This document shows, piece after piece, positions 35,313-56,631 of a DNA stretch of 64,000 bases. A program made the translations under genes and the position numbers. The notes under the pieces were generated by a model that worked only from the letters and a program-made list of their open reading frames with translations, did not search any database and had not been told where the DNA came from. This DNA comes from Mesoflavibacter sp. Its GTDB lineage: Bacteria; Pseudomonadota; Alphaproteobacteria; UBA8366; Aestuariispiraceae. Location: the NCBI GenBank assembly GCA_017792345.1, contig CP051228.1, positions 1,054,001-1,118,000 on the forward strand. The letters are read 5' to 3'. Every line of letters begins with the position of its first letter. The first letter of the stretch is position 1.

Positions 35313-37496
35313 ATGCTGAAGCGTTTCCGCGAGCGCATCGGAGGCCTTCGGGCTGTCCGGTGGCTGGCCAAGCTTGTTCCAATTCATAAATTACGCCTGT
35401 CAAATATTCGGATTGGCCGGCGTGTCTTCCTTGCCGTTCTTCTGCCCATCCTTGGCATGATCGGCTTCGCCGGGCTTGTGGTCTGGGAAAGCCAGAAAGA
35501 GGCAGAGAATTCCGCCGGTGTCCGGCATCTGGCGGATATGTCCCTGGCCGTCAGCGCAACCGTCCATCAACTTCAGATCGAGCGTGCTCAATCCGTCGGC
35601 GTCATCGTGACCGGAGGCGCAGCCTTCGCGGATGTCCTTCCGGCCCAGATCGAGACGACGGATACCGCCGCCTCCGCAATGGCCGACCTGCTGTCCCGAA
35701 CCGATCTGTCCCGCTATGGCGAGGTCTTCGCCCGGAAAGCCGCGGCGGGGCTCGACGCGTTGGCTGGGCTGGATCCGTTGCGAGCATCCGTGCGGCAGAA
35801 TTCCATAACGGCTGCCGAGGCATCCCGGGAATTCGGGGCGTTGAACGCGACCCTGCTGGCGATCATTGAAGAGGCCGCCCTGGCCTCGACCGATGTCGAA
35901 ATCACCGCGGCCATCGTCTCCTACACCGCGATCCTGCAGGGTAAGGAACGGGGAGCGGAGGAGCGCGCAATCGGGATCGTCGGCTTCGCGACGGAGGATT
36001 TCACGCCGGACATGCTGTCGCGGGTTCAGCTTCTGATCGGCAGTTGGGACGCCTATGCAGCGCTGTTCTGGACCTTCGCGACCGATGACGAACGCATATT
36101 CTTCGTGCGCACGATGAACAGTGTGGCCGTGACCCAGGTCAACCGGATGCGCCAGGTCGTCATCGATCTACCGATTACCGGAAAGCTGCGGGGCATCAAA
36201 CCGACAACCTGGTATGACGCCACCACCGCCCGTCTCGACCGGCTGAAACTGATCGAGGATCACCTTTCCGAGAACCTGGACCGCCGGGCCAGCACCCTGG
36301 TCGGTGCCGCCGAAACAAACTTCCTGGTCACGCTGATCGCGACCTGTGTGTTGCTGACCCTGACGGCCGCTGTCGTCTGGTATGTCGCACGCAGTATCAC
36401 GCGGCCCGTCGCCCGGGTGACCGCCACCATGAACGCGTTGGCGGATGGCGATGTGCATCTCACCATTCCGGATGCGGACCGGCGCGACGAGATTGGGGCG
36501 ATGGCACGCGCCGTGGAAATTTTCCGGGCAAACAAGGTCGAGGCCGACCAACTTGCCGCCGAACAGGCCGAGGCGCGCGAGCGGCGGCAGAAGCGGACAG
36601 AGGCGATGGAGGCGCTCGCTCGGGATTTCGACAGCAAGATCGCGGGCATTCTGCGGCAGGTGGCGGGCGCGACGGATTCGCTGAAACTGACGGCCGAGGC
36701 AATGGCCAGCGCCGCCGATCAGACCACCCAACAGTCAAATGCGGTGTCCGCCGCATCGGAGGAAGCCGCTGAAAATGTGCATACCGTCACCGCCGCCGCG
36801 GAAGAGTTGAGCGCGTCGATCGCGGAAATCAGCGGTCAGGTTCAGCAATCGACCGACATCGCCCGGCGCGCCGTCGCATCTGCCGACGGCACGCGGGACC
36901 GTATTCATTCCCTGGCCCAAGCCTCCCAGAAGATCGGCGACGTGGTCGATCTGATCACCGACATCGCGGCTCAGACCAACCTGCTCGCGCTGAATGCCAC
37001 GATCGAGGCGGCGCGGGCCGGGGATGCGGGCAAAGGCTTCGCGGTCGTCGCCAATGAAGTCAAAAGCCTGGCCAGCCAAACCGCCAACGCAACCGGGGAA
37101 ATCGGCTCCCAGATCTCCGAAATCCAGGGGGCAACCAAAGGCGCCGTCTCTGCGATCGAGGAGATCGTCTCGGTAATCGAGCAGATCGCGGAGAACGCCG
37201 CGATGATCGCCGCCGCCGTCGAGCAGCAGAATGCCGCCACCAGCCAGATCACCGGCAATGTGGAACTCGCCGCTCACGGCACCCAAACCGTCTCGACCAG
37301 CATCCAGGGTGTCAGCATGGCCGCCGCCCGGACCGGTGACGCCGCCGGACAGGTCCTATCCTCGTCCAAGACGGTTTCGGACCAGTCCGATCTGTTGCGC
37401 GACGAGGTGGAGGGATTCTTGCGGGAAATCGCCCGGGTCCAGGCGGTCTCTACTCAAAGCACGAACAGTTCGGTCGCGGCGCCGTCCTTCTCATAG
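35313..37496 (+). CDS. Methyl-accepting chemotaxis protein with NIT sensor domain
   Basis: Transmembrane chemoreceptor of 727 aa. A membrane helix lies at about residues 38-59, followed by a periplasmic helical NIT-type domain (nitrate/nitrite sensing family; [17 protein letters not shown] is its typical first helix) to ~330. A second membrane helix lies at about 336-358, then HAMP, a coiled linker, and a methyl-accepting signalling domain with tip [20 protein letters not shown] and [14 protein letters not shown]. Whether it senses nitrate is inferred from the family. Its last 43 bases overlap the end of the convergent hydrolase gene. Confidence 0.92.
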
Positions 37497-38416
37497 CCGC
37501 GCAGCATCAGGGTCCCGGCGCCGGCATCCATTTCCGCCGCCATCCGCGTGTCGGCGTTCAGGATCGGCGCGGCAAGCCAAGCCAGCGGCGCCCCCGCCGC
37601 GTCCCGAATTCGGGCGCGGCGGGTCGCGTTTTCCTTGCCGCGCGGATGCCCGGTCAGGTCGCCGCTCAACCAGTCATTCGCCACCGCCTCCGGCGCGGCG
37701 TGAATTCGCGTTTCCACGCCCAGATGCTCGATAACGCAGCCCTCCCCTGGCCTCGTTCCGGCCAGGCTGAACAGCGCGGGCAGCGCGATCGGGGTTTCGC
37801 GGATCATCCGGACAGCCGCAGTGTAATCCGTGCAGGTTTCAAAAGCGCGCCGCGCTAGATGGGCGGGCGGCAGCGCTCTGCTGCGCCCGACCTGGACACG
37901 ATCCCACAGCCAGCCCGCCGCGACCGGCCAGCCACGCTTCAGGCGCAGGGGCGCCTGATTGATCGCCAGGGAGAACCGACCCGGTGCCATCCCGGTGATC
38001 AGTCCCGCAAAACCCGGCCATGAGATGTTGTAGAAATCGCCTGCCGCGCCGGTCTGGTGGGCCACGACCAGCTCCCGTCCCAGCCCGTCGAAGGGCCAGT
38101 CCAGGGTCCGGCGCATCGACATGCCGCCGGACTCGGCCTCAGCGACGGCAGTGGTGCAGCCCCATTCGTAACAGAAATTCATGAACCAGATGCCGCGCGG
38201 CATACCCGCCGCCAGCTCGGCGATTTCCGCGCGGTAGGGATTGTCCGTCCGCGCCGCCCACCGCGAACTGCGCCCATCGAACAGGGTCACGACCGGCGCC
38301 GACATCTTGCGCTTGCCGGCCACCAACAACCGCTCCGCCCCGGCCCGGTGGGACCGGCACAGAAGCGCGGCGCCTCCTTCCCGGATATCGACCAAGGGGA
38401 TCACTGGCATTGTCAT
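37454..38416 (-). CDS. Ntn-type linear amide hydrolase (C45 / acid ceramidase-like)
   Basis: Protein of 320 aa with the self-processing Ntn hydrolase pattern of the C45/acid-ceramidase/NAAA group. A candidate nucleophile Cys87 is in [14 protein letters not shown], followed after a short gap by [10 protein letters not shown], the family G-x-RTLDW substrate strand. Autoproteolysis would occur before Cys87, leaving it as the new N-terminus. Members cleave N-acyl amides, penicillin-type side chains or ceramide-like lipids. It has no obvious signal peptide. A TTGAAC-ATT-GTTCAA palindrome lies just upstream. The 3' end overlaps the chemoreceptor gene by 43 bases. Confidence 0.75.
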
Positions 38417-38436
38417 CTTCTGTCTCTCTTAAGATT

Positions 38437-38451
38437 TGAACATTGTTCAAT
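38437..38451. promoter_or_regulatory. Operator-like palindrome before the amide hydrolase gene
   Basis: TTGAAC-ATT-GTTCAA is a perfect inverted repeat of two 6-base arms, 21 bases before the hydrolase start. On the minus strand a TTGAAT hexamer and a TAATTG hexamer lie just upstream at about promoter spacing, so a protein bound here would block transcription. The size suits a TetR- or MarR-type repressor, but no such gene is adjacent. Confidence 0.4.
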
Positions 38452-38526
38452 TACTGACAGACATAAGAATATTCAAGACCGAATCTAACGATTTCGATCC
38501 CGCCACGCGACTATCTTTAATCGGAA

Positions 38527-38582
38527 TGGTGCCCCCGGGGAGACTCGAACTCCCACTTCCGTAAGGAAAACAGATTTTGAGT
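38527..38582 (-). repeat. Left attachment site: tRNA-Leu 3' fragment
   Basis: 56 bases identical to 55109-55164. They cover the 3' end of tRNA-Leu(CAA) from the CCA through the T arm, variable arm and into the anticodon loop. Beyond base 38582 the match stops at once and no 5' half of a tRNA exists, so this is a non-functional remnant created by island integration. Confidence 0.95.
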
Positions 38583-38699
38583 TAGAAATTCTACTACTTT
38601 GCACCGCTGGGCATTACGCTGTTTTACGGTAAATATATGAAATAATTGACATAATTTGTTCGTGAGCTACTTTGGAGTACTGCTCAAATCTATCTGGCA

Positions 38700-38721
38700 T
38701 GCCATACGGGTGCCACACGGG
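38700..38721 (+). repeat. Tandem 11-bp repeat inside left island end (putative integrase arm sites)
   Basis: TGCCATACGGG is followed directly by TGCCACACGGG, two 11-base units with one mismatch. The same word recurs in the same orientation just inside the right island end. Position between the attachment core and the integrase start suits arm-type binding sites for the integrase N-terminal domain, and possibly autoregulation of its promoter. Confidence 0.55.
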
Positions 38722-38734
38722 ATCGGACCTCAGA

Positions 38735-39946
38735 ATGGCGAAAGTCAAACTTTCAAAGAGCCTAATCGATAGCTTGAAACCGGACGGGTCAAGGCGGGCC
38801 GACTACTTCGATGAGTCAATGCGCGGGTTCTTCCTGCGGGTTGAACCGAGTGGAACAAAAACGTTCTATCAGTTCTATAGAAACAAGGGCGGAAGAGGTC
38901 GCAACTTCAAGCTAGGCAGATACGGGGCCATTACCCTGTCACAGGCTCGCGATCTCGCCAGTGCTTGCATGTACGAAGTGTACAAAGGCAATGACCCTTC
39001 GGCTGATCGATCTGGGCATCGGCGTGACCCTACCGTTTCCGACCTAGCTAAGTTGTTTCGGGAACATCACATTACTTCAAAGTTGGCTGTGTCGACCCAG
39101 CGTGAGTACGGTCGCCTTCTCGACAAGCGTATCCTGCCAAAGCTCGGGTCATGGAAGGTAGTCGAAATTTCCCGGGCCGACGTTTTGAAGTGGCACCTCG
39201 AAATGAAAGAAACTCCGAGGGAGGCCAACCACGCGTTGGCGGTTCTCTCGAAAATGTTGAGCTTCTCGGTGAATACTTATGGCTTTCGAGAGAGCAACCC
39301 CTGCCTAGGTGTACAGAGATTTAAGGGATCGAAACGTGAACGGTTCCTTCAACCGGAAGAGTTCGCCCGACTGGGAAGCGCTATTCAAAAGGCAGCTTCA
39401 GATGGCGGCCGGAACATTTTCGCTGTACGTGCCATACAGCTCCTGGCCTTATCAGGTTGCCGTCGGTCTGAGGTGCTTTCTCTCAAGTGGACGTTTGTGG
39501 ACAAGGAACGTTCATGCCTTCACTTGCCAACCAGCAAAACCGGAAAGAAGACGGTTCCCCTTGGGGCACCCGCCTTGGCCTGTCTCCAATCAATTCCCAA
39601 GCTTAAAGGCTCAGTTTGGGTGTTCCCAAATTTTGATGGGGAAGGCCATCTAAGGGCGCTCGACTGGACATGGTATCAAATCAGGAAGGAGGCCGGACTC
39701 ACAGATTTGAGGCTGCACGATCTTAGGCATACGTTTGCGAGCGTTGGGGCATCGCAGGGCGTCGGGCTATCCATCCTCGGAAAAGCGCTAGGACAGTCGC
39801 AGTTGGCCACCACGCAGCGGTATGCACATTTGTACGATGATCCTGTGAACAACGCTGTCGGCTCCATCAGCGAATTCATTGAGGGAGCGATGTCCGGTCA
39901 TACCGCGAAGATCATTCCACTAGGGAAAGACAAGAAGGCCTCGTGA
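38735..39946 (+). CDS. int: Island integrase, tyrosine recombinase of the DUF4102/P4 type
   Basis: Site-specific recombinase of about 403 aa. The N-terminal DUF4102-type arm-binding domain has RRADYFDESMRGFFLRVEPSG and FYRNKGGRGRNFKLGRYG, then a core-binding helical domain, then a catalytic domain with Arg in LSGCRRSEVLSLKW, HDLRHTFAS (His-x-x-Arg) and the nucleophile Tyr in TTQRYAHL. It catalyses integration and excision at the 56-bp tRNA repeat. The frame is open 21 codons further upstream, but MAKVKLSKSLIDSL is the usual family start. It reads into the island from the left attachment site. Confidence 0.93.
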   Translation: MAKVKLSKSLIDSLKPDGSRRADYFDESMRGFFLRVEPSGTKTFYQFYRNKGGRGRNFKLGRYGAITLSQARDLASACMYEVYKGNDPSADRSGHRRDPTVSDLAKLFREHHITSKLAVSTQREYGRLLDKRILPKLGSWKVVEISRADVLKWHLEMKETPREANHALAVLSKMLSFSVNTYGFRESNPCLGVQRFKGSKRERFLQPEEFARLGSAIQKAASDGGRNIFAVRAIQLLALSGCRRSEVLSLKWTFVDKERSCLHLPTSKTGKKTVPLGAPALACLQSIPKLKGSVWVFPNFDGEGHLRALDWTWYQIRKEAGLTDLRLHDLRHTFASVGASQGVGLSILGKALGQSQLATTQRYAHLYDDPVNNAVGSISEFIEGAMSGHTAKIIPLGKDKKAS

Positions 39947-39955
39947 ACAACATCG

Positions 39956-39984
39956 TTGACGGGCGCATCCGTTATGTCTATACA
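39956..39984 (+). promoter_or_regulatory. Sigma70-like promoter before the AlpA-like gene
   Basis: TTGACG (39956-39961) and TATACA (39979-39984) are separated by exactly 17 bases. They lie 115 bases before the AlpA-like start and just after the integrase stop. It is one of the better promoter matches in the island and would drive alpA and probably the reverse transcriptase gene. Confidence 0.5.
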
Positions 39985-40099
39985 TATTTCTACGTAGTTC
40001 GCCGATACCAAGGAGGGTGTGCGAGCGTTGGCTTAAACATGAGCCAGCAGCTTAGCCCACCGAGGAAGGGGTGACGCTGGCTCCAAAGTGGAGAGTGTC

Positions 40100-40297
40100 A
40101 TGTCCGGTATCGCGCTAGAACTCCTTTCTGAACAAGAAGTCGCCAATTTGCTGCAGGTTAGTCCGCGCACGGTCCAGTCGTGGCGTCTCAATGGCTTTGG
40201 CCCTCCGTTCATCAAGGTCGGTCGTTTGGTCCGCTACCAGAAAAGCGAAGTGTTTCAGTTTCTTGCTGACAACAAACATGCGTCTACGTCCGCGTAA
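40100..40297 (+). CDS. AlpA-like helix-turn-helix protein, putative excisionase
   Basis: Small DNA-binding protein of 65 aa with a MerR-like helix-turn-helix (HTH_17): LLSEQEVANLLQVSPRTVQ, SWRLNGFGPPFIKVG, VRYQKSEVFQFL. Proteins of this type beside P4-type integrases act as excisionases or as activators of the integrase gene. The ATG at 40100 is preferred to a GTG four codons upstream because GGAGAG lies just before it. It is followed after 43 bases by the reverse transcriptase gene, with a 16-bp palindrome in the gap. Confidence 0.85.
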   Translation: MSGIALELLSEQEVANLLQVSPRTVQSWRLNGFGPPFIKVGRLVRYQKSEVFQFLADNKHASTSA

Positions 40298-40306
40298 GAG
40301 ACAATC

Positions 40307-40322
40307 ATGAAATTGATTTCAC
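40307..40322. repeat. Island palindrome copy 1, upstream of reverse transcriptase
   Basis: ATGAAATTGATTTCAC, arms TGAAAT / ATTTCA around two bases. It lies in the 43-base gap between the AlpA-like stop and the reverse transcriptase start (19 bases before the ATG). The same element occurs five times in the second recombinase gene and once in the UPF0489 gene. The position suggests an operator, but another role is possible. Confidence 0.75.
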
Positions 40323-40340
40323 GCGGGGTGTGAGGCTGGA

Positions 40341-41567
40341 ATGATGTCGAGTCTGACGAAATCCGAGAAAGATCAGATCAAGAAAGCTCGAAAGCGGACC
40401 AAGCAATTGTTGGATCGTGTCCGAGACGCTCGGCACAACAAGGCGAGGCACCAGGTTCGTCAGTGTTTCAAGTCCTTCGAGTTTCGGCTTGCTGCAGTAG
40501 ACCAAGCTCAACGGAAAAAGCGTCTCGGTACTTCGAAGAACCCGGTTAGTGTCGCTGAACTTCTTGATCCTTGGTACGGGACGACCGAAAAAGTCGGACT
40601 GAATGCCACCCCCAAATCCAAGGAGGGCGAGTTTCGTCCTACCGCCGAGTTCGGGCTCGAAAACACGGCCCTGCAAATTATGGTCCGAGATGTGTTGAAT
40701 GCTCGGGGGGCGTTTTCCGAATACCAAACCCAATTCAAAGGAGGTGTACCAGAAGCCATCAAGAGGGTTAGGGCAGCCCTGGAGTCCGGCAAGGTTTATG
40801 CTCTGACCTGTGACTTGCAGAACTGCTTCGGCAGTTTTCAGGAAGAGGGTCTTAAAGCCTCGCTACCGTTACCCAAAGAAGTGACCGAGAAAGTCGTTAT
40901 GTCTAAGGGCATGTCTTTCAGTCCTATGGGGATCCTTAATCAGATCATGAGCACGGATGAGATGCACGAACTGTGCAAAGGGGACGTGGACGACCACATC
41001 TCCGAATTTCTTATCCAGGCCCGGTCAGGCATTCCGCAAGGGTCCGTATGCTCGCCTGTCGTCGCGGAGACGATTCTCGCCCAAGTCTTCGGGCAAGTCG
41101 TTACGTCGTGTGAAGTCGTCAGTTATGCGGACAACACGATAATCCTCGGGACGGATGAAAACGCAGTGTGCGAGACTTTTAAAGCCTTGCGGAGTGCCTT
41201 TGAGGCACACCTGGCCGGGCCGCTTTCGCTCATGGTTGAAGGTCACTTTCAACCCGGCGATCCCATCCAGTTCTTGGGGGTCATGATCACGTTGAAGGGC
41301 GGTGTCGTGTCGGTAGATGTCTTGCCGAGCAAGGTACTTGAGATCAGGGAAAAGCTAAAAACGCTTCGCAAGAAAATTCGAGACCCGAAGAAGACAATCC
41401 GCCATCGGCAATATCTTTTAAGCAAATACATTCAGACTTCGAAAGGCTGGTGCAGCACGTATGCAGGGACCGAAAGCGTGAAGTTGTACGAAACCGAGTT
41501 CCGGAAAAAGCTGGAGCAATGTGTTCAATCCTGCGTGGAACCGGAACTGTTTTGCATTAATTGGTGA
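40341..41567 (+). CDS. Reverse transcriptase with YADN active-site box
   Basis: RNA-directed DNA polymerase-like protein of 408 aa. A basic, helical N-terminus (~1-60, many Lys/Arg) is followed by fingers (RPTAEFGLENTALQIMVRDVL), motif A with Asp158 (LTCDLQNCFGSF), the SGIPQGSVCSP motif (229-239), then VVSYADNTIIL at 259-269 where the usual YxDD is YADN, so the second catalytic Asp is Asn265. FLGVMI (311-316) matches the primer-grip motif, and a ~90-residue basic thumb-like tail follows. There is no maturase X, HNH or protease domain, so it is not a standard group II intron protein. Its neighbours are AlpA-like, RarA-like and recombinase genes. It belongs to none of the retron or DGR layouts I can recognise. 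Confidence 0.85.
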   Translation: MMSSLTKSEKDQIKKARKRTKQLLDRVRDARHNKARHQVRQCFKSFEFRLAAVDQAQRKKRLGTSKNPVSVAELLDPWYGTTEKVGLNATPKSKEGEFRPTAEFGLENTALQIMVRDVLNARGAFSEYQTQFKGGVPEAIKRVRAALESGKVYALTCDLQNCFGSFQEEGLKASLPLPKEVTEKVVMSKGMSFSPMGILNQIMSTDEMHELCKGDVDDHISEFLIQARSGIPQGSVCSPVVAETILAQVFGQVVTSCEVVSYADNTIILGTDENAVCETFKALRSAFEAHLAGPLSLMVEGHFQPGDPIQFLGVMITLKGGVVSVDVLPSKVLEIREKLKTLRKKIRDPKKTIRHRQYLLSKYIQTSKGWCSTYAGTESVKLYETEFRKKLEQCVQSCVEPELFCINW

Positions 41568-41823
41568 TGGACACTAGCGACAGGCTAGAGACACAAAAAA
41601 ACCATATTAACCCCCTCCCCATAATAGTGATTTCAAGAACCCAAGATATTGGATTCGTTTCAGATACTTACTCGGACTACATCACCAGGATAACGTAGAG
41701 ACACTTCGAACACCTCGCTCCAGTTAGTGTCTCCGCCTCTGATGACGTCGACTGATCCCCTCATTTACTGGTGTCAGGGGCAGCATAGCCTACCGGTGTG
41801 ATAACGAACCGGAGGCAATCCTA
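41568..41823 (+). other. Intergenic region after the reverse transcriptase, with GAGACAC repeats
   Basis: 256 bases with no convincing gene. GAGACAC occurs at 41588-41594 and 41698-41704, and its reverse complement at 41727-41733. GAGACACT (41698-41705) and AGTGTCTC (41726-41733) form a perfect 8-bp stem with a 20-base loop. A smaller stem CTAGC/GCTAG lies at 41574-41588. Because reverse transcriptases outside introns often use a neighbouring structured RNA, this is the best place to look for one. A GGAGGCA ribosome site at the end serves the next gene. Confidence 0.4.
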
Positions 41824-42954
41824 ATGAGATCAAAACCCGATACAGACAAGACCAACACCGCCCCCGACTTGGGGGCGTTTTCATTTGAACCTAAAGGCAG
41901 ACTGCCCTGCGACAGATGGTTGGCCAGCCGTGTATTGCCCAAGGCCATCCGTCGAGGTGATCTGGTCACCACAGAGCGAGCAGCGACAACACTGTCGATG
42001 CTGGACCGCAAGGGACTGTGGAGGCTCCTGCATCGGATTGCCTTCCACAACATCGGGATCGCCGACCCCGGACTTGTCTGGGCTGTATCAGCCTTTTGTC
42101 TGGACCCGATGTTCCGAGCGGCAAAAGGCGGCGACCTTCGCGTGGCCTATTGGCTATGCGGCCTGCTTGCGCAAAGCGTGAAGGACCGGACAGCGGTTCA
42201 ACTCGCCTACGCGGCCAAGCATCCCCCAAACGTGGAGAACGCCCGAAAGCGGATACTGAACCTAACCAGGAATGAACAGCTGGATATCATCCAGGACCGA
42301 TCCCAAGACTTGCTCGTGCGAGCTAACTCGGTGCTGTCCATCCTGGACAACGCAGGCCAGAAGTGCCGCACATCGAGAAGCGGTCTTGCTCAAGCATTTC
42401 ATTCCTTGGGGGTCGATGACCCGATTGTCTGGGTAGCCCTGACCTCCTCTCGTAAGTGCGGGGACAAGGCCATGGGGCTGTTACCGCTGCTGACCGCTCA
42501 GCTACTAAGGGAACCGCACGCGGGACCTATCTCCAGCACTCCGCCGATCCAAGAAGATGTGGAAGGCGTCCCGCTATACGCTTTGGATCACCGCATCGCG
42601 TCAGGTCGAACCATGTTGCGGGCCTGGGGAGAGATCGCCCCCACCCTTCGAACAGAAATGACCAAGACGGTCGCGAAAAGCAGAGGCTACACGGCCTCAA
42701 AACTCCTGCTGGAAGATATCGAGGGCGACCGATGCGCAACGGTCCTCGACTGGCCCACAGGTCGGGTGGTCACCGCATTATCGACCCAGGCGCTCTTGCA
42801 CCGACTGAAAACTTCTCCTGCGGAATGGAACGGGTTGAAGCGGGCCGCTAAGCGGGACCTCCCAATCCTGAATGAGTTACGACGAGAGGGGCTGAAAAAA
42901 CACATCGACCAGTTTCGGGCGACCGAGAACCGATATCGGGGGATCGACCAATGA
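41824..42954 (+). CDS. Protein resembling the RarA C-terminal helical region
   Basis: Protein of 376 aa. Residues ~35-125 read like the helical part that follows the ATPase in RarA/MgsA-type proteins: LPKAIRRGDLVTTERAATTL, then GLWRLLHRIAFHNIGIADP and LVWAVSAFCLD. No Walker A or B is present, so it has no ATPase of its own. The remaining ~250 residues are helical and basic and I do not recognise them. It lies between the reverse transcriptase and the second recombinase and overlaps the latter by four bases (ATGA), so the two are translationally coupled. A role in handling DNA at forks or recombination ends is a guess from the resemblance. Confidence 0.75.
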   Translation: MRSKPDTDKTNTAPDLGAFSFEPKGRLPCDRWLASRVLPKAIRRGDLVTTERAATTLSMLDRKGLWRLLHRIAFHNIGIADPGLVWAVSAFCLDPMFRAAKGGDLRVAYWLCGLLAQSVKDRTAVQLAYAAKHPPNVENARKRILNLTRNEQLDIIQDRSQDLLVRANSVLSILDNAGQKCRTSRSGLAQAFHSLGVDDPIVWVALTSSRKCGDKAMGLLPLLTAQLLREPHAGPISSTPPIQEDVEGVPLYALDHRIASGRTMLRAWGEIAPTLRTEMTKTVAKSRGYTASKLLLEDIEGDRCATVLDWPTGRVVTALSTQALLHRLKTSPAEWNGLKRAAKRDLPILNELRREGLKKHIDQFRATENRYRGIDQ

Positions 42955-44222
42955 GCCATCGTGTTACCTCCGATAATCCCCACTTATCGGACCCAAAACC
43001 GCGCGACAAAAACGCGCGTGAAACTGATTTCACCAAGGCACTTGGAGAGGCCCAATCATCAAATGAAATTGATTTCATCGGTGAGACCGGCCAATCGACC
43101 CAAATCGACCTGAGAGCCAGCGGTACAAACGAACCTGTATCACCTGATGAAACCAATTTCATCAACGAGAAAGTTTCCGCGTCGAGTTCTGGGAACTTAT
43201 ATGTCTGCACAAAAGCTGCCGTTGAAATTGATTTCACGGAAAATGGCATAGAATGCGGATCGCTCAATGGTGAAATCGATTTCACGACAACAGGCCAGGA
43301 CCAAATGAAACCCGGTCGTGTGCCACAGATTCCCGATGAAGCAGTTGCCCACTATCTGAGAAATGCGGTTTCAGAAAACACGATCCGGGCTTACCGGGCG
43401 GACCTGGAGCACTTCGAGGCATGGGGCGGCACCATCCCAGCCGCTCCCGGGACCGTCGCCGAGTACCTGGCAGCTCAGGCAGGCAAGTTGGCGGTCTCGA
43501 CCCTCCGCCGTCGTGTGGCTGCTCTAAGCGCCGTCCATGAGTCCAAGGGCCTTCCTAATCCTACCCACACGAAACTCGTTAAGGCCGCTCTACGGGGCAT
43601 CCAGCGGGCACACGGAACCCCTCAGGATCGGGCTTCCCCATTGCTGGTCGAAGACCTGACCCGAATTGTCGGATTGATGGGGGAGGACCCGAAATCGACA
43701 CGGGACAAAGCCCTCCTGCTGATAGGTTTCGCGGGTGGCCTTCGCCGGTCGGAATTGGTCGCCCTGAACCAGGAAGATATCGAGACCGCCCGACAGGGGA
43801 TCATAGTCACAATCCGCCGCTCCAAGACGGACCAGATGGGCGACGGCCGCCAGATCGGCATTCCCCACGCGAGAGGTCGTCACTGTCCTGTCCGATCCCT
43901 GGAAGCATGGCTAGAGCACTTGCCTGAGAGCCCCGACCCAATCTTCCGCCCCGTGACGAAGTCAGGACGGGTAGGGGATAGGAGATTGTCTACAGAGGCC
44001 GTTTCAAGACTCGTGAAGGGTGCGGTAGCATCCATCGGCCTGGATCCAGCCACCTTCTCCGGTCATAGCCTAAGAGCCGGACTCGCCACCAGCGCCGCCA
44101 TGCATGGTGTCAGCACTCTCGCCATCCGTCGCCAGACGGGCCATACGTCAGACAGTATGCTGGCCCGGTATGTTCGAAGCGGAGAGCTGTTCGTGAACAA
44201 TGCGGTCGGTTCATTGCTCTAA
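42951..44222 (+). CDS. Second tyrosine recombinase with palindrome-bearing N-terminal extension
   Basis: Tyrosine recombinase of 423 aa. The catalytic set is complete: Arg265 (GGLRRSELVAL), Lys292 (SKTD), His372 and Arg375 (GHSLRAG), His398 (TGH) and Tyr407 (ARYVR). The core-binding domain starts near residue 126. The first ~118 residues have no known domain and contain five E-[IT]-[DN]-F words, each encoded by a 16-bp palindrome. An internal ATG at 43305 (residue 119), with AGGACCAA before it, would give a 305-aa protein of standard XerC/D size, so the extension might be untranslated in part. The protein is unrelated in sequence to the island integrase and may act on sites other than the tRNA. 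Confidence 0.88.
   Translation: MSHRVTSDNPHLSDPKPRDKNARETDFTKALGEAQSSNEIDFIGETGQSTQIDLRASGTNEPVSPDETNFINEKVSASSSGNLYVCTKAAVEIDFTENGIECGSLNGEIDFTTTGQDQMKPGRVPQIPDEAVAHYLRNAVSENTIRAYRADLEHFEAWGGTIPAAPGTVAEYLAAQAGKLAVSTLRRRVAALSAVHESKGLPNPTHTKLVKAALRGIQRAHGTPQDRASPLLVEDLTRIVGLMGEDPKSTRDKALLLIGFAGGLRRSELVALNQEDIETARQGIIVTIRRSKTDQMGDGRQIGIPHARGRHCPVRSLEAWLEHLPESPDPIFRPVTKSGRVGDRRLSTEAVSRLVKGAVASIGLDPATFSGHSLRAGLATSAAMHGVSTLAIRRQTGHTSDSMLARYVRSGELFVNNAVGSLL
43018..43285. repeat. Array of five 16-bp palindromes in the recombinase 5' region
   Basis: Copies lie at 43018-43033 (GTGAAACTGATTTCAC), 43063-43078 (ATGAAATTGATTTCAT), 43147-43162 (ATGAAACCAATTTCAT), 43222-43237 (TTGAAATTGATTTCAC) and 43270-43285 (GTGAAATCGATTTCAC, a perfect palindrome). 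Start-to-start spacings are 45, 84, 75 and 48, all multiples of three. The base before TGAAA and the base after TTTCA pair in four of five copies, and the codon before each GAA ends in T although the amino acid differs. This shows selection on DNA symmetry and not only on the peptide. Confidence 0.9.
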
Positions 44223-44968
44223 ATGTCCAGCTCGAACATCTCACTTTCAAACCCATCCTTCTCAGAAGATATCAAGAGAACGTCTCCATAAATTCCAAAC
44301 TCCTGGGATAAGAGCCCCAAAATCTGTTCGTTGTCTTCGCCGATTTTCATCGGCTCGCCTTCATCGCAAACACAAACTGCATGCAGTATCTCGCTAATAT
44401 CCGTTCGCTTTAGCGAGAATAATGTTCGCAGATCGCCGTATGTCCAGGTCGGACCAGACCTATTGACATCATGAGCCAAAGCATCCCGATGCCATGCACA
44501 AGAGGACAAGTACGGATGCATCTCAGGCACCTGTTGATTGAAAGGTGCCTCACAGTAGATCATCTCAAACACCGCAAAACGATTTGCGAAAGGCGTTTGA
44601 CGTTTCAATTGATCACTAAAGTGAGAATCGCCATTGCTCTTTTGGGTGTAGTCCCAAGCGTCTGGCTTCACGCGCCGGGGAAGCTTGGCTTCGAAGAGCA
44701 TCACTTTGGTCTGATCGCCACTCCTAATAACAATTGTAGCATCACAACCCATCTTTTGTTCTGCCCGGTTCGGGAGCACATATGAAACCGCAGTCAGGCC
44801 TGTTCTTGTGTGAGAGTTAATGTTTCTCCTAAGTGCGCCTGTAAAGTTGGACGTGTAGTCATTCTCGCCCGTGATGAATCCGCCCACCAGATCGCTCCGA
44901 GCTTCTTTGTCCGCAAGAACCGCAAATCTGATGAGCTCAACGATCTGATCAATTGGCATTGGAAACAT
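44219..44968 (-). CDS. Predicted PD-(D/E)XK nuclease-like protein
   Basis: Soluble protein of about 249 aa. The only recognisable motif is GCDATIVIRSG...VMLFEAKLPRR near residues 75-100, the Asp...Glu-x-Lys signature of restriction-type nucleases, with a hydrophobic strand before each part. An upstream GENDYTSNF and a Cys-rich middle (YLSSCAWHRD) are not known to me. The start at 44968 is chosen because GGAGG is five bases before it; another ATG lies four codons upstream. It is convergent with the second recombinase, sharing four bases at the stop codons. Its place in an island with restriction genes suggests a defence or anti-mobile-element role. Confidence 0.65.
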   Translation of the reverse strand: MFPMPIDQIVELIRFAVLADKEARSDLVGGFITGENDYTSNFTGALRRNINSHTRTGLTAVSYVLPNRAEQKMGCDATIVIRSGDQTKVMLFEAKLPRRVKPDAWDYTQKSNGDSHFSDQLKRQTPFANRFAVFEMIYCEAPFNQQVPEMHPYLSSCAWHRDALAHDVNRSGPTWTYGDLRTLFSLKRTDISEILHAVCVCDEGEPMKIGEDNEQILGLLSQEFGIYGDVLLISSEKDGFESEMFELDI

Positions 44969-45341
44969 CGAGACCTCCATCCTCGTAAAACTTTAAAGAA
45001 TTCGACCATGTAGTGTGGGGCATAGATACCAGTTCTGAAACAGAATTTCCGCCAACTTCTTCATTTCCCTTTCGATTTGACACCTATCAGATTATCGTCA
45101 CGACAGAGCCACAACGCACGGCTTCGGGGCGTCATAACCCCACACGAAGCGGTCTGGCGAGACCGGAAAACCGTCCTCCGATCTATGGTCGGGGAGCCTG
45201 TGACGTATGTCCAGGACCCCGGTCTAAAGGTCACAGGGACCGTCTTCGTGCGGTTTATGAACTCCCCGATCACCAGATCGATTTGCCAACTTCCAGCGGG
45301 CGCGCTGGAGGCTCTGGCTTCGTCTAGGGTGGGGTAGCGAG
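44969..45341 (+). other. Low-coding region with one possible small gene
   Basis: About 370 bases between two genes. The first ~100 bases should carry the leftward nuclease promoter. A rightward frame at 45077-45337 could encode 86 residues; its second half (MVGEPVTYVQDPGLKVTGTV...) looks protein-like and it ends four bases before the next start. No good ribosome site is visible and overlapping frames exist on both strands, so I leave it as a possible gene only. Confidence 0.3.
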
Positions 45342-46325
45342 ATGATAAGCAAATGGGCGATGATCGCAGTTTGGGTGGCCTTTCTTGGCGTGGCTGCTGG
45401 GGGCCATTGGTGGTATCGGTGGTCAGGCAACCTAGAGGTAACCGGTGAGGTTGCTGAATCGGTCGCGCGTGTATCGGTTACTCGCTGCAATGATCGTCGC
45501 ATATTCAGCGATTGGCATAGCCAGTGTGAGTACATCTTTTCCTTCGATGAGACGCCACTGTACTACGAAGACGGTGTCAAAACGCGACTGACCCTGATTT
45601 ATGATGGGCGTAACCTGAGGCTTGTGGCCATGGTGCCTGATTGGTTTCACAACCGGTTCTACACCAATCGCATGCCGACACTCGCTGTATTGAGTCCCAC
45701 AACCTATGTCGCCGAACGAGCGTTTTTCTCCGGCCACAATCGATCCCCAGTTTTGACTGTTGGAGATCGGTCGTTCTCATCGTTTCGATGGACTGGAGAC
45801 GATGAGCATTGGATCGCCTCCGAAACCGATACCGCGAACTTCCTTGATGTACTTCTAGATGGCGCGGAGGTCGATGTTCAGTATTTCAATATGGCAGCGG
45901 GTGAGGAAACCGCCACGATCTCACTTTCGGGGTTTTCAACAGCACTAGAGTACATCGACTTCGGAAGTGCGGCGGCTGAGGTGAACGAAACTCCCCCGAT
46001 GACACCCTCGGCTGCTATTGCGGCTATCGCCCACCTTCTAACGACTAACAGCTTCGGGGTTTCGGCGGACAATCTCGTGGCACACCCAAACCCCCAGGGC
46101 CGGGGATACTTCGTCTCTGTGCCCGAGACCCGCTTTTCCGGCGCAGAACGAAAGTTCATATGGTTCGTGGTCAACGGTACAGCAATGAAATTGAATGGTG
46201 CGACCAATAATCTAACCCCAGATTTGCCCTGGCCCCGTGAGGTCGGTTCTGATGCGTTGGATGGCTCTGGACTATGGGCGTCTGAGGTGTTGAGAGTCGG
46301 GTTAGCGTTGGCGTTTAGCGAGTGA
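45342..46325 (+). CDS. Unknown membrane-anchored or exported protein
   Basis: Protein of 327 aa that I do not recognise. A hydrophobic N-terminal helix (residues ~5-24, MIAVWVAFLGVAAGG) acts as an uncleaved anchor or signal. The rest is predicted to lie outside the cytoplasm and is beta-rich, with two Cys (RCNDRRIF...SQCEY) that could form a disulphide. It overlaps the next gene by four bases (GTGA), so the two form a translation-coupled pair. GGGGTAGCGAG precedes the ATG. The codon mix is unlike that of the core genome. Confidence 0.75.
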   Translation: MISKWAMIAVWVAFLGVAAGGHWWYRWSGNLEVTGEVAESVARVSVTRCNDRRIFSDWHSQCEYIFSFDETPLYYEDGVKTRLTLIYDGRNLRLVAMVPDWFHNRFYTNRMPTLAVLSPTTYVAERAFFSGHNRSPVLTVGDRSFSSFRWTGDDEHWIASETDTANFLDVLLDGAEVDVQYFNMAAGEETATISLSGFSTALEYIDFGSAAAEVNETPPMTPSAAIAAIAHLLTTNSFGVSADNLVAHPNPQGRGYFVSVPETRFSGAERKFIWFVVNGTAMKLNGATNNLTPDLPWPREVGSDALDGSGLWASEVLRVGLALAFSE

Positions 46326-47125
46326 TATCATCACCTGAGAAAGTTCAATACTGCACGGGTGTCCAAAGGATGGAGTTCGTTGAAGAGCAAAAAGCCGGGA
46401 AGCACACAGTCTTCATCTGTGACGATCACAATTTTGTCCTGGAAGCGTGGATGGACCACGTTCCAGCGCCCAATGGCCCCATGAGCCCTTCGCCGCCAAC
46501 ACTAATTACACTCGACGCACATACCGATACGCGACCTCCGTTCAATAGGAAAGCATGCTCGCATCTATCGCCCAGCATACCTGGGCCGGAAGAACTACGG
46601 AGCTATTCCAGCCCCCGTATTGCGAAGCTCAAGGAGCGTGAAACTGATTTCATCCGGGATCTAGCCCACGATGAGCACATTGTCGCGGCCTATGAGGCCG
46701 AAGTGATCTCGGAATGTTTCATTCTCTTTTCCGGGAATGCAGATGGCGATGAGGAACTTCATTGGTCGCATACGCTTAAACTCACCACTCCTATTGATGA
46801 TAGTCAGGGGCACCACGAAAAGACCGGGTGCGATAGCGTTCTAGAAAGCAGCCAACTCGTTCGGTGGACAAATGCGATTGAGAGTTTGACCGGGCAATAC
46901 CTTGAGGAGATGAGCTACATCCTCGATATCGATCTCGATTTTTTTAGGACTCAAGAGTCTGTTCACCCCAAGGATCCCGCAGAGTTTCTCCGGCTCGTTC
47001 GGAATGCGTCTTTGATAACCGTCGCACGTGAGCCGCAATGCGTGCGCGACGGGTGTTTGGAGGGTGAAGAATTGACTGCAGAGTATGTGTGGAAACACCT
47101 AGAGAGCCTGATCGCAACAGCGTAG
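46322..47125 (+). CDS. UPF0489 family protein (arginase-like fold)
   Basis: Soluble protein of 267 aa. It shows the UPF0489 pattern of paired acidic metal sites: ICDDHNFVLEAW, LITLDAHTDTRPP (Asp-x-His-x-Asp) and YILDIDLDFF. The arrangement resembles the arginase/deacetylase superfamily, suggesting a metal-dependent hydrolase. The start is a GTG overlapping the upstream stop; an ATG at 46370 is the alternative. One copy of the island palindrome lies within it at 46638-46653 and encodes ETDFI, in the same reading phase as the copies in the recombinase gene. Substrate unknown; pairing with an exported protein is unusual. Confidence 0.72.
   Translation: MISSPEKVQYCTGVQRMEFVEEQKAGKHTVFICDDHNFVLEAWMDHVPAPNGPMSPSPPTLITLDAHTDTRPPFNRKACSHLSPSIPGPEELRSYSSPRIAKLKERETDFIRDLAHDEHIVAAYEAEVISECFILFSGNADGDEELHWSHTLKLTTPIDDSQGHHEKTGCDSVLESSQLVRWTNAIESLTGQYLEEMSYILDIDLDFFRTQESVHPKDPAEFLRLVRNASLITVAREPQCVRDGCLEGEELTAEYVWKHLESLIATA
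46638..46653. repeat. Island palindrome copy 7, inside the UPF0489 gene
   Basis: GTGAAACTGATTTCAT, almost identical to the first copy in the recombinase array. It lies in frame so that the words Glu-Thr-Asp-Phe are encoded, as in the array. It is more than 3 kb from the array but still within the island. Confidence 0.7.
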
Positions 47126-47190
47126 CCCCTTTGAATTTTGCCGTTGTACCAACTGGGAGAAGCGGTTGAGATAAAGCCCAGGCACGATTT

Positions 47191-48780
47191 ATGGCATACG
47201 AACTGTTGGGGGAGGCTGTGACCGAGGAGCAAAAAAGGCGGCTTGAGCAAAAGCTCTGGGACATTGCGAACACGCTGCGTGGACGGATGGATGCGGACGA
47301 GTTCCGCGACTACATCCTGGGCTTCATTTTCTACAAGTACCTATCCGAGAGGCTTCACCTCTATGTCGACCGCGAGCTTCTGAAGTCCGAAGGCAGAACC
47401 TTCACAAGCCTCGACGAGGATGATCCCAAGGACATGGAAATCCTCAAGGCGGTTGAGGAAGCTTGCGTTGAGAAGCTTGGATATTTCCTGCGACCGAACG
47501 AGCTTTTCACGGCGGTTGCGAAGCGGGGGAACGAGGCTGGCAGCTTCATCCTCGACGATCTGACCGAGACACTGAATAACATCCAGAAATCCACCATGGG
47601 CAACGAGTCCGAGGAGGATTTCATCAATCTGTTCGAGGACCTCGATCTCACGTCCACGAAGTTGGGGCGGACGAATGAGGCACGGAACACGATTATCGCG
47701 AAGGTCCTCGTCCATTTGGACGCTATCGACTTTCAGCTCGATAGCGCGGATGCGGATGTCCTGGGCGACGCCTACGAATACCTGATCGGAAAGTTCGCCT
47801 CGGGTGCGGGTAAGAAGGCCGGGGAGTTCTATACGCCTCAGCAGGTCTCAACCGTGCTGGCGAAGATCGTCACGACCGGTAAGGCGCGTCTGCGCTCTGT
47901 CTATGACCCGACCTGCGGTTCAGGCTCCCTGTTGCTGCGCGTCGCGCGGGAGGTCGGGCAGGAGAATGTGAACGACTTCTACGGCCAGGAACTGAACCGG
48001 ACCACCTACAACCTTGCGCGTATGAACATGCTGCTGCACGGGGTGCACTACCGCAATTTCGATATCCAGCAAGAAGACACGCTGGAACACCCTCAGCACG
48101 AAGGGATGACCTTCGAGGCAATCGTCGCCAACCCGCCCTTCAGCGCGAAATGGTCCGCCAACAAGATTTTCGAGAGTGACGACCGCTTCTCGGAATATGG
48201 CCGTCTCGCCCCGTCCTCAAAGGCAGACTTCGCCTTCGTCCAGCACATGCTCCACCATTTGGATGAAGACGGAACGATGGCCGTCGTATTGCCTCATGGT
48301 GTTTTGTTCCGAGGTGGCGCAGAAAGGATTATCCGCGAGTTCCTCGTCCGAAGAAATTTCTTGGATGCCGTTATCGGCTTGCCAGCGAACATATTCTACG
48401 GCACCGGCATCCCCACCTGCATCTTGGTGCTAAAGCGCTGTAAGGAAACGGAAAACATACTCTTCGTGGACGCATCGGCTTGCTTCCAGCGGGGCACCAA
48501 TCAGAACTGGCTCAGTACAGACGATGTTGACCGGATCGTAAGCGCATACCGAACTCGCGCAGAGGAAGAGCAATTTAGCCATCGCGCGAACCTCGACGAG
48601 GTTCTAGAGCACGATTTCAATCTCAACATCCCGCGCTACGTCGATACGTATGTGCCAGAGCCGCCGGTCGATCTTGATGAAGTAACCCGTCGCATCGAGC
48701 GCTTGAATATGGAAATGCAAGACGTTGACGAAGAACTTCGCGCCTACTGTGCCGAGCTAGGGCTGGAGGCGCCCGTATGA
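47191..48780 (+). CDS. hsdM: Type I restriction-modification methyltransferase subunit HsdM
   Basis: N6-adenine methyltransferase subunit of 529 aa. An N-terminal helical domain (DIANTLRGRMDADEFRDYI) is followed by the SAM-binding motif DPTCGSGSLLLR (239-250) and catalytic NPPF (314-317), then a C-terminal region that contacts HsdS. The length is typical. HsdM and HsdS form the methylase, and with HsdR the restriction complex. It is the first gene of the hsdMSR operon and its stop overlaps the hsdS start by four bases. A GTG nine codons downstream has a GGGGGAGG in front and is an alternative start. Confidence 0.95.
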   Translation: MAYELLGEAVTEEQKRRLEQKLWDIANTLRGRMDADEFRDYILGFIFYKYLSERLHLYVDRELLKSEGRTFTSLDEDDPKDMEILKAVEEACVEKLGYFLRPNELFTAVAKRGNEAGSFILDDLTETLNNIQKSTMGNESEEDFINLFEDLDLTSTKLGRTNEARNTIIAKVLVHLDAIDFQLDSADADVLGDAYEYLIGKFASGAGKKAGEFYTPQQVSTVLAKIVTTGKARLRSVYDPTCGSGSLLLRVAREVGQENVNDFYGQELNRTTYNLARMNMLLHGVHYRNFDIQQEDTLEHPQHEGMTFEAIVANPPFSAKWSANKIFESDDRFSEYGRLAPSSKADFAFVQHMLHHLDEDGTMAVVLPHGVLFRGGAERIIREFLVRRNFLDAVIGLPANIFYGTGIPTCILVLKRCKETENILFVDASACFQRGTNQNWLSTDDVDRIVSAYRTRAEEEQFSHRANLDEVLEHDFNLNIPRYVDTYVPEPPVDLDEVTRRIERLNMEMQDVDEELRAYCAELGLEAPV

Positions 48781-49958
48781 TCGAGATGGCCCCATCACCG
48801 GAACTTCGTTTTCCAGAATTTGAGGGCGACTGGAAGCCGGCCAAGGCGGGCGACGCATTCAGGAATAGCAAAAAAAAAGGAGAGGCCGGACTACCAATTT
48901 GGTCTGTGACCTTGGATCGCGGTTTAGTTCCTCGCGATAGCCTGGAACGGTACCTGGCTGCGGATGCGGCGGATGAGTCCAATCTTCGCGCGGAGCCTGG
49001 TGACCTTGTCTACAACATGATGCGGATGTGGCAAGGTGCGGTAGGTGTAGCAACCGAAGAATGCATGCTAAGTCCTGCGTATGTCGTATTAAGGCCGCGT
49101 AGTGGCATCTACTCCAAGTTCTTTGACTTCTGGTTTAAGAATCCGCGAATGCTGCATCAGCTCTGGGCCTACTCCCACGGACTGACCAATGATCGACTAC
49201 GATTATACTATGCCGATTTTGCGAGCATTCCTATTCGACTTCCCAGTTACGCTGAGCAAAAAAAAATTGCTGACATTCTGGATGCCGTTTCGAAGAGAAT
49301 CTCAATCTTGGGTGAAAAGAAACTGGCACTAGAGGAGTACAAGCGAGGTTTAATTCAGCGAATTTTCGACCAAGAGGTTCGCTTCCAAACCGAAAATGGA
49401 GGACACTTCCCAGCTTGGAAACATCGCAGACTTTGCGAAGTGTTTGAGGAACGGAAAGAGCGCGGCCATCCCGAAATGGAGTTGTTATCTGTTACCGTTC
49501 GGGAGGGCGTTAAGTTAGCTAGCGAGGTAGAACGGGCCCAGGAAGCAAGTGTAGATAGGACCAATTACAAGGTCGTTTCGGTTGGAGATTTGGCATACAA
49601 TTCAATGCGAATGTGGCAAGGAGCCAGTGGTGTTTCCGAATATGATGGGATAGTAAGCCCTGCATATACGGTAGCTATACCGAAGCCCAAGCAAGTGCCG
49701 GAATTTTGGAAATACTATGTGAAGCATCCTGATTTAGTGGGGAAATTTAGGAGATACTCTCAGGGACTTACTTCAGACACTTGGAGTTTAAAGTTTAAGC
49801 AGTTCTCCGAAATATCGGCCCCAATTCCATCCGAATCTGAGCAGCGAAAAATTGCCACATGTCTAGAAGCAGTTGATGCCAAAATAGTTGCAGTCAGCGA
49901 TACCCTTGGCGCTCTAAGGGACTTCAAAAAGGGCCTCTTACAAATGCTCTACGTGTAG
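48777..49958 (+). CDS. hsdS: Type I restriction-modification specificity subunit HsdS
   Basis: DNA-recognition subunit of 393 aa with two target recognition domains (~20-190 and ~215-390), each followed by a conserved helical spacer (EQKKIADILDAVSKRISIL and EQRKIATCLEAVDAKIVAV). The two domains are alike (YNMMRMWQGAVGV / YNSMRMWQGASGV; YSHGLTNDRL / YSQGLTSDTW), so the two half-sites they read are likely similar. Two in-frame runs of nine A (48870-48878 and 49258-49266) lie in the first domain's start and at the first spacer; slippage at either would truncate the protein. The gene overlaps hsdM and is followed ten bases later by hsdR. Its GC content is low for this genome. Confidence 0.95.
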   Translation: MIEMAPSPELRFPEFEGDWKPAKAGDAFRNSKKKGEAGLPIWSVTLDRGLVPRDSLERYLAADAADESNLRAEPGDLVYNMMRMWQGAVGVATEECMLSPAYVVLRPRSGIYSKFFDFWFKNPRMLHQLWAYSHGLTNDRLRLYYADFASIPIRLPSYAEQKKIADILDAVSKRISILGEKKLALEEYKRGLIQRIFDQEVRFQTENGGHFPAWKHRRLCEVFEERKERGHPEMELLSVTVREGVKLASEVERAQEASVDRTNYKVVSVGDLAYNSMRMWQGASGVSEYDGIVSPAYTVAIPKPKQVPEFWKYYVKHPDLVGKFRRYSQGLTSDTWSLKFKQFSEISAPIPSESEQRKIATCLEAVDAKIVAVSDTLGALRDFKKGLLQMLYV

Positions 49959-49968
49959 GTGGTTCCCG

Positions 49969-52860: not shown

Positions 52861-52938
52861 TCTGGTTGCATTTCAAGTTTGTCTCGCCGCAGAATGCGGA
52901 TGGCATTGAACGCGTTCTGCGGTTGGGGCGGGAAAAGT

Positions 52939-53994: not shown

Positions 53995-54060
53995 AACCGA
54001 TGCTCGTTTTGTCTCCCGAAACTGAGTACGGCAAACGGCTACTAGAAAGCAGACTCAGAG

Positions 54061-55108: not shown

Positions 55109-55195
55109 TGGTGCCCCCGGGGAGACTCGAACTCCCACTTCCGTAAGGAAAACAGATTTTGAGTCTGCCGCGTCTACCAATTCCGCCACAGGGGC
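55109..55195 (-). tRNA. tRNA-Leu (anticodon CAA)
   Basis: An 87-base gene on the minus strand with encoded CCA. Acceptor GCCCCTG pairs with CGGGGGC, the D arm contains GAATTGGTAGACGC, the anticodon loop is CTCAAAA (anticodon CAA, decoding UUG), a long variable arm identifies the Leu class, and the T loop is GTTCGAGTC. Bases 55109-55164 (the 3' part) form the right attachment site of the island, so the intact tRNA has been rebuilt with island-borne 3' sequence and stays functional. Confidence 0.97.
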
Positions 55196-55341
55196 CTCAG
55201 CCGGGTGAATAGGCGAAAAAGGGGGGACCTTCAACCGGTTTTGCGCAGCATGGAAAACTGGGGCCGGAAAAGAAGGCTCGCCACGGCGGGGGCGGCTGGG
55301 CTACCCTTGGCGCGATTGTGGTGAGGGGACCGTTAGGAACG

Positions 55342-56595: not shown

Positions 56596-56631
56596 AGTCG
56601 CGGCTATGAAACATCGGCCGAAGGATGCGGC

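Follow-up and report, generated by a model that had tools for sequence, protein, structure and literature searches.

Why should the translated 5' end of a recombinase gene carry the same short palindrome five times over? The gene in question (42951-44222, + strand) lies in a 64,000-nucleotide stretch of Mesoflavibacter sp. (assembly GCA_017792345.1, contig CP051228.1, positions 1,054,001 to 1,118,000), here called the window, to which all coordinates refer unless a genome is named. It encodes a tyrosine recombinase of 423 amino acids with a long N-terminal extension and is part of a 16.6 kb island at a tRNA-Leu gene, which holds seven copies of the palindrome in all. The initial annotation had described the palindromes and offered three explanations for them, namely a recombination target carried inside the recombinase gene, an operator or partition array, and a tiny in-frame mobile unit. 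Its observation is confirmed here and its interpretation partly supported: the idea of a target inside the gene stands, the palindromes as that target do not, and the likely target is instead another element, an inverted repeat of 23 bp at 42969-42991, which the annotation did not contain and beside which the palindromes look like accessory sites. With a probability of roughly 0.6, core and accessory palindromes would together be a composite site for recombination, lying within the gene for the enzyme that acts on it.

The palindrome, defined as TGAAAN4TTTCA, occurs five times in the array within the recombinase gene (43018-43033, 43063-43078, 43147-43162, 43222-43237 and 43270-43285), 68-335 bp into the coding region. 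A sixth, non-coding copy at 40307-40322 lies 9 bp past the stop codon of the gene for an AlpA-like protein and 18 bp before the start of a reverse transcriptase (RT) gene, and the seventh, at 46638-46653, lies within the UPF0489 gene. All seven start where the initial annotation had placed them; the degenerate string by which it had written them is not exact for every copy, some of which begin with G. The spacings in the array are 45, 84, 75 and 48 bp, all multiples of three. In the array, the outermost bases pair in four of five copies; palindrome 5 is perfect across 16 bp, and the arms of palindrome 3 extend to TGATGAAA/TTTCATCA (43145-43164). The centre is a pyrimidine-purine (YR) step in all seven copies. 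Between the second and third palindromes a decayed copy, CCAAATCGACCTGA (43100-43113), was recognised by eye; it is in the same phase and reads QIDL.

In the whole genome (one contig, 4,907,657 bp) the exact motif is found seven times, always in the island, so that both a chance origin and a motif of the core genome are rejected, the latter being a condition under which the initial annotation would have counted its own reading as refuted. Its remark that the flanking chromosome has no copies holds for the exact motif; when one mismatch to TGAAAYYRATTTCA is allowed, more places are found, scattered across the chromosome. With up to three mismatches the window has 19 matches, against 4.7 expected, a number reached in none of 100 shuffles. 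The 13 other genomes of the family have 0-20 exact motifs each, the places of which are scattered, as far as the matches listed show, and two copies 34-64 bp apart were found in this genome alone among 385 genomes of the class. A scan of an 84,980-genome collection for such a pair of motifs gave 88 stretches (of up to 8 kb), none of which encodes a relative of the recombinase, and the amplified TGAAAT array is therefore known from one genome only.

In each of the six copies that are translated, the peptide is E-[IT]-[DN]-F (E-T-D-F in the UPF0489 gene). The codon before GAA ends in T in each of the six, and its amino acid changes (R, N, D, V, G, R), as first noted. The frame is a genuine one, in that the first 118 codons of the gene fit the codon usage of the island best in their own frame (0.098, against -0.02 or less in the other five). 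When these 118 codons were redrawn from island usage with the peptide kept, 162,786 of 200,000 trials gave no motif, 34,395 gave one, 2,720 two, 97 three, two gave four and none gave five. Because the codons are improbable given the peptide, and because the palindromes of relatives, described below, differ in both sequence and peptide, there is support for the earlier proposal of selection on DNA symmetry inside a coding sequence. The initial annotation would have given up its reading if homologues kept the EIDF peptide with freely varying codons and flanks; no homologue with that peptide was found in the sequences searched.

A repeat search of the 5' end of the gene brought out the putative core, TCCGATAA-TCCCCAC-TTATCGGA, which lies 18 bp inside the recombinase gene and 27 bp before the first palindrome (measured to its inner 14 bp) and reads TSDNPHLSDP. 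Its arms are perfect over 8 bp, end in ATAA/TTAT and enclose a 7-bp centre, so that it looks like a crossover core of the Xer/dif type, sites that have inverted arms around a centre of 6-8 bp. CGATAAN7TTATCG is present once in the genome, and that one occurrence is the core.

Recurrence of the core was followed in related recombinase loci and genomes, here given L and G numbers, respectively. Of 44 loci (the present one included; L112 has no upstream sequence), 11 have GATAA-N5..8-TTATC no more than 420 bp 5' of the conserved domain, against 0.096 in shuffles. In a viral collection the single recombinase protein retrieved no relative and an alignment query retrieved 185; of the best 80 of these, two had too little upstream sequence or a reversed best match, and eight of the other 78 carry the pattern, while a search of the class found a looser form of it in ten of 15 new loci, both being observed counts with no shuffle baseline. 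Among the 26 loci with at least 44% identity (own included), 15 have the core in the orientation of the gene. In 12 of the 15 it is at most 450 bp 5' of the conserved domain, and 11 of these 12 have a centre of 7 bp. In genome G166, GATAAN7TTATC occurs once, at the recombinase. The relatives suggest that the core goes with this family of recombinases. None was found in L188 (56% identity).

The core is also read in a constant phase. In all eight loci compared in which it falls within the open reading frame (ORF) the phase is the same, six of the eight having been picked because the core was inside the ORF. The resulting peptides are VTSDNPHLSDP here, LTSDNTHLSEP (L185), LTSDKNYLSVP (L186), LTSDKIHLSEP (L187), LMSDNSHLSDP (L184) and LTRDNTLLSRP (L134), and in two viral loci with the core in an open frame of the same phase they are SDKNPLSD (L223) and NDKASLSL (L248). 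Two further ideas on the core were abandoned. A centre of 7 bp in near and 6 bp in distant relatives, as seen in the 44-locus set, was not upheld over all loci. A chromosomal partner at G000:2692303 has a spacer alike in six of seven positions; it falls at a gene boundary and about 0.06 such matches are expected by chance. As a separate observation, 19 viral stretches (L271-L289) contain the exact sequence TCCGATAAN5ACTTATCGGA with no relative of the recombinase in the stretch; 12 are from contigs under 9 kb and most are AT-rich, and they are perhaps phages using a host Xer site of this type.

The core is followed by a palindrome in relatives as well. The nearest relative, L185 (63% identity), has a 14-bp palindrome with one mismatch, TGCAATTAACTGCA, 27 bp past its core, the same distance at which TGAAACTGATTTCA follows the core in the window. 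In L184 the palindrome is TGCAGACATCTGCA, at 33 bp, and in L193 it is TGCAATTAATTGCA, at 32 bp; the contig of L192 has TGCAATTAATTGCA at 35 bp, a case that came from a search with the composite pattern and is left out of the count below. When a 14-bp TG...CA palindrome with at least five of six arm pairs was looked for within 70 bp of the core, four of the 15 near cores (at least 44% identity, own included) had one, at 27, 27, 32 and 33 bp, against 0.16 expected from a shuffle rate of 0.0105 per core. Over all 114 oriented cores, five have such a palindrome against 1.32 expected. Both counts leave out cores with under six of eight paired arm positions, and the larger one also leaves out loci from the pair-of-motif genome scan and some small loci. 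Core and palindrome thus occur together, 27-35 bp apart, in part of the near relatives.

The palindromes of the window follow the pattern TGAAAY-YR-ATTTCA, and relatives keep the symmetry with other sequence. With three site types (TGAAA, TGCAA and TGCAG arms), chosen after the first cases had been seen, sites within 450 bp 5' of the conserved domain were found in 4 of 19 loci with at least 45% identity (own included), in 1 of 69 at 40-45% and in none of 51 below 40%; 18 sites were found in all, seven of them those of the window itself, against 1.40 in shuffles. From this count and that of the near cores, ten short locus entries duplicating longer loci were dropped. The peptides encoded by the palindromes differ (EIDF; AINC; IADICN), and therefore the recurring feature is a DNA symmetry with TG...CA ends and a YR centre.

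On two contigs of the viral collection the unit is found away from the gene. Core plus palindrome stand 3.3 kb downstream of the recombinase in L193 and about 5.2 kb downstream on the L192 contig, in both cases outside the gene, and the L193 gene retains a peptide like TSD..LSEP. Relative to the conserved domain, palindromes lie at -1706, -76 and +3279 in L193 and at -3033, -322 to -70 and +3298 in the present island. Three AT-rich viral stretches (L291, L292 and L293, the first and last alike) have GATAA-N7-TTATC with TGCAACTTGTTGCA 29 bp past its last C, in non-coding DNA and with no recombinase relative in the stretch. Such stretches came from composite-pattern scans (9 and 6 stretches), of which L290-L296 and L299-L304 have no recombinase relative in the fetched DNA and several are copies of one another; they are not counted.

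From the core, its recurrence and phase in the family and its association with the palindromes we infer the following. The repeat at 42969-42991 would be a crossover core bound by the Xer-like recombinase of the same gene, and the palindromes after it would be accessory sites. A dimeric protein bound to their DNA would give the synapse a shape in which only some pairs of sites can recombine, in the simplest case two direct copies on one circle. The outcome might be the resolution of multimers of the excised island. By analogy with the plasmid sites cer and psi, the accessory protein would wrap the paired sites so that mainly direct repeats on one molecule recombine, a preference which fits multimer resolution of an excised island. 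While relatives that possess an accessory site have one, beside the core, here it would have been multiplied in frame into five good copies and a decayed one, and this growth may have added about 90 residues to the N-terminus of the enzyme. The palindromes before the RT gene and in the UPF0489 gene may be bound by that dimeric protein as well.

Enterobacterial Xer sites with accessory regions are already well described, with a centre of 6-8 bp, arms of 11 bp that are imperfectly conserved (PMC11724359) and accessory regions of about 200 bp bound by ArgR or ArcA plus PepA (PMC11724359, PMC5357621). Like cer of ColE1 and psi of pSC101, the present locus has a short inverted-repeat core with a centre in that range beside a putative accessory region (PMC11724359, PMC5357621). 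In these accounts cer is described as non-coding, with 11-bp arms and acted upon by the host XerCD with ArgR/ArcA and PepA, whereas the present site is coding, lies inside the gene of its presumed recombinase, and has 8-bp perfect arms and a single palindrome repeated. Coding here is indicated by the ATGA gene start and by the fit of the array frame to island codon usage. The putative accessory palindromes span 27 to about 290 bp past the core, compared with the roughly 200 bp of cer and psi. Their form, TGAAA-N4-TTTCA, differs from the ARG box, whose consensus is TGAAT-N4-ATTCA.

The archaeal suicidal integrases (of SSV1, pTN3 and pT26-2) have the attachment site inside the integrase gene (PMC8371274), as the putative core is inside the recombinase gene here. 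According to what that source says of them, they integrate into the chromosome and split their own gene; the present gene is intact, its Pfam matches are PF00589 and PF02899 alone, and neither Phage_integr_3 (PF16795) nor a split gene was found. Unlike in those elements, a different integrase is present at the tRNA-Leu end of the island, and the core is a symmetric Xer-like repeat. Transposons of the Tn4430 type offer another parallel. Their tyrosine recombinase TnpI has a core and accessory repeats (the internal resolution site) beside its own gene, and these repeats bind TnpI itself and are non-coding. The putative core and accessory repeats of the island are likewise associated with a recombinase gene; those in the array are coding. 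A narrow search of titles and abstract openings in the open literature gave no description of a bacterial tyrosine recombinase with a core in its own coding N-terminus.

A number of findings weigh against a composite site. The first group concerns the core. Of the 26 near loci, 11 lack a core oriented like the gene, and 11 of the 15 near cores have no such palindrome, and therefore the family needs neither in this form. Below 44% identity the centre is 6 bp in ten cores and 7 bp in seven. GATAAN7TTATC occurs 5, 7 and 2 times in genomes G508, G535 and G553, where the control gives 4, 0 and 2. The core precedes the open frame in L108, L109 and L111, genes that are also numbered L136, L137 and L135, and that of L173 is imperfect and in a different phase, probably ahead of the true start. 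The L193 and L192 recombinase genes were found to have no core, though the palindrome of the gene is present. The 8-bp arms, perfect as they are, are shorter than the 11-bp Xer arms.

The second group concerns the palindromes and what might bind them. Two of the copies in the island have no adjoining core, the distances of 27-35 bp are not helically constant, and the three palindrome types as well as the 14-bp TG...CA form were picked after the first cases had been seen. The shared phase of the palindromes, to which the initial annotation had drawn attention, is weak evidence alone, as the motif can be read without a stop in just two of its three forward phases. No second genome with the same array was found in the collections searched. 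A palindrome-binding protein was not identified among the candidates looked at: the gene for the AlpA-like protein, a small helix-turn-helix protein, was seen in just three of the ten loci compared, namely the present one, L184 and L188; the product of orf376, the gene preceding the recombinase, was rejected as the binder, orf376 not being seen in L192 and L193; and a LacI-type gene was not found among eight island proteins compared with Pfam or nine with PADLOC, hsdS, hsdR and small ORFs lying outside the scan. Neither a circular form nor a recombination product has been seen.

Of the other explanations the one that survives best is that the palindromes are operators only, through which a repressor or activator of the island or of a co-resident element controls the RT and recombinase genes; the nearness of the core would then be incidental or would couple expression to excision. 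We consider it a live rival, although rather unlikely. TGAAA-N4-TTTCA with its central YR step resembles the consensus of LacI/CcpA-type operators and suits LacI-type dimers, one palindrome stands 18 bp before the RT start, and a half-site with two mismatches (41622) lies between the RT gene and orf376. Motif pairs adjoin LacI-type regulators, recognised by eye, in six (L029, L080, L055, L031, L047 and L026) of 15 loci inspected from the 88 plus three fetched, and the L193 copy ends 57 bp before a mechanically listed ORF. Against this, the sites are mostly within a coding region, where five copies lie up to 335 bp deep; the array has no sigma-70-like match, and the 8.8 kb scanned has two, fewer than in shuffles; a LacI gene was not recognised among those island proteins that were scanned; and core and palindrome occur together away from the gene on two contigs. 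Operator and accessory roles are not exclusive, because ArgR does both. As to the partition function which the initial annotation had coupled to the operator idea, a scan of island proteins that did not take in hsdS, hsdR and some small ORFs identified no ParA/ParB gene.

It is very improbable that the palindromes act as RNA hairpins (stem GUGAAA/UUUCAC, loop YYRA) to which the RT or some RNA-binding protein would bind. All copies are on the strand transcribed for the RT, recombinase and UPF0489 genes, and the 300-nucleotide array folds better than shuffles (z of -2.75 as RNA and -4.0 as DNA), which follows from the palindromes being repeated. The arms are invariant, none of the five inner pairs shows a compensatory change in any of the seven copies, the 14-bp length and central YR step suit a DNA dimer, and in L193 and L297 sites recur outside the recombinase gene. 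Slightly less credit still goes to a repeat at the protein level, in which the E-[IT]-[DN]-F peptide would bind a partner and the DNA symmetry would be a by-product. The six coding copies do share one peptide phase; the recodings described above never gave five palindromes, the constant T before GAA shows that the flanking codons are constrained, one copy is non-coding, and the relatives' palindromes encode AINC or IADICN. An EIDF pair of the searched form (first glutamate codon GAA) was not found in the viral collection. The weakest explanation is an in-frame mobile unit spread by copying, like a very small version of the Rickettsia palindromic elements, which are long mobile inserts and also palindromic DNA read in frame inside genes: in-frame copies do recur in two genes of the island, but the unit is only 14-16 bp long, is confined to one island with no exact copy elsewhere in 4.9 Mb, has constant arms with variable centres and flanks, and in the UPF0489 gene is not an insertion, since that copy aligns without a gap to two homologues of 30-36% identity.

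If the palindromes are accessory sites beside a crossover core, a wider and more tentative proposal can be made, which we regard as possible rather than probable. A family of bacterial recombinases may carry a complete regulated site, core and accessory operators, in the translated 5' end of the gene itself, so that site and enzyme would travel and evolve as one unit, accessory copies would grow by in-frame steps that lengthen the protein, and recombination might re-cut the N-terminus of the enzyme, as could be suggested by the displaced core-plus-palindrome units of L193 and L297. Such a family would be an equivalent, in bacteria, of the archaeal suicidal integrases, with a topological filter built in. 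One stretch of 340 bp would then be protein code, crossover site and multi-operator accessory region at once, and selection at the DNA level inside a gene could be measured against the encoded protein. A natural series, in which accessory sites number 0, 1 or 5 and their motif has three or more different sequences, would bear on how topological selectivity evolves in site-specific recombination. The question is directly testable because the palindromes can be recoded with no change to the protein.

The recombinase matches Phage_integrase (PF00589) with 2.8e-18 and 66.7 bits, where the curated cut-off is 27.1, and PF02899 with 1.9e-5. R265, K292, H372, R375, H398 and Y407 are invariant in an alignment of seven sequences and are presumably the catalytic R-K-H-x-x-R-H-Y residues. 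The ORF begins at an ATGA overlap with orf376, an arrangement common to L134. The tail before the conserved domain has about 125 residues, compared with some tens in homologues (33 in L134), and the extension alone gave no plasmid match at E 10. An internal ATG (Met119, 43305-43307, + strand) preceded by AGGA is a possible start of a short form. Single-sequence structure predictions had a mean predicted local distance difference test (pLDDT) score of 35 for the recombinase and 38 for the orf376 product. In L115, L119 and L122, relatives of the recombinase have an in-frame TAA inside the matched stretch.

The partner gene orf376 (41824-42954, + strand) has homologues adjoining the recombinase in L134 and L184-L188; a homologue precedes it in seven of the ten loci compared, own included, the L191 copy being partial and none being seen in L192 and L193. 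Two of the relatives weakly match the MgsA C-terminal domain (E 0.022), and no match to orf376 was found in plasmids. Within its first codons a terminator-like hairpin followed by TTTTC (41859-41877) is possibly an attenuator; such hairpins are not clearly above shuffles in the region (13, compared with 9.2, standard deviation 3.3).

The island ends in a 56-bp direct repeat resembling attachment sites (38527-38582, identical to 55109-55164), the right copy of which is the 3' part of the tRNA-Leu(CAA) gene (55109-55195, - strand), the sole match in an RNA family scan of 37000-57000. GC content per 1-kb window is 0.47-0.59 inside and 0.60-0.71 in the flanking windows shown. The gene order is integrase, AlpA-like gene, RT, orf376, recombinase, orf253 on the opposite strand, orf327, UPF0489 gene and a presumed type I restriction-modification set. 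The integrase (38672-39946, + strand; Phage_integrase 4.4e-19, Arm-DNA-bind_3 8.7e-16) lies just inside the left end, is distinct from the array-bearing recombinase and is assumed from its arm domain to be of the P4 type. The gene for the AlpA-like protein, a candidate binder of 65 amino acids (40100-40297, + strand; HTH_17 8.7e-12), is followed by the RT gene here and by another gene family in L184 and L188. That family is common to L184, L185 and L188, near the orf376-recombinase pair, and was not recognised in the present island; it matches Rep_trans (replication initiation factors) at 5.5e-6 in L188, below the curated cut-off, at 0.15 in L185 and not at all in L184.

The RT (40341-41567, + strand, 408 amino acids; RVT_1 8.7e-10) is divergent, with the catalytic motif YADN in place of the usual YADD. 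It has no match among 72,556 plasmid records, a single distant one (25% identity) besides itself in 289 genomes of the class, and weak ones to RT models of a defence library (best 2e-11). The UPF0489 gene with the distal palindrome is at 46322-47125 (+ strand; PF12640 2.2e-10). The segment 45077-45337 is 68% alike over 35 amino acids to part of a 464-residue ORF after the recombinase in L187 and is perhaps a remnant or a conserved DNA segment. The identity of HsdM depends on a match to an L185 protein with HsdM_N and N6_Mtase, and the HsdS and HsdR genes are inferred from gene order alone. Downstream of the presumed restriction genes, the protein of 52879-53994 matches the candidate defence family PDC-S18 (9.1e-38). 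In the flanking chromosome, four TCCTGC-N4-GCAGGA inverted repeats are present at 14505-14699, with spacings of 56, 67 and 56 bp.

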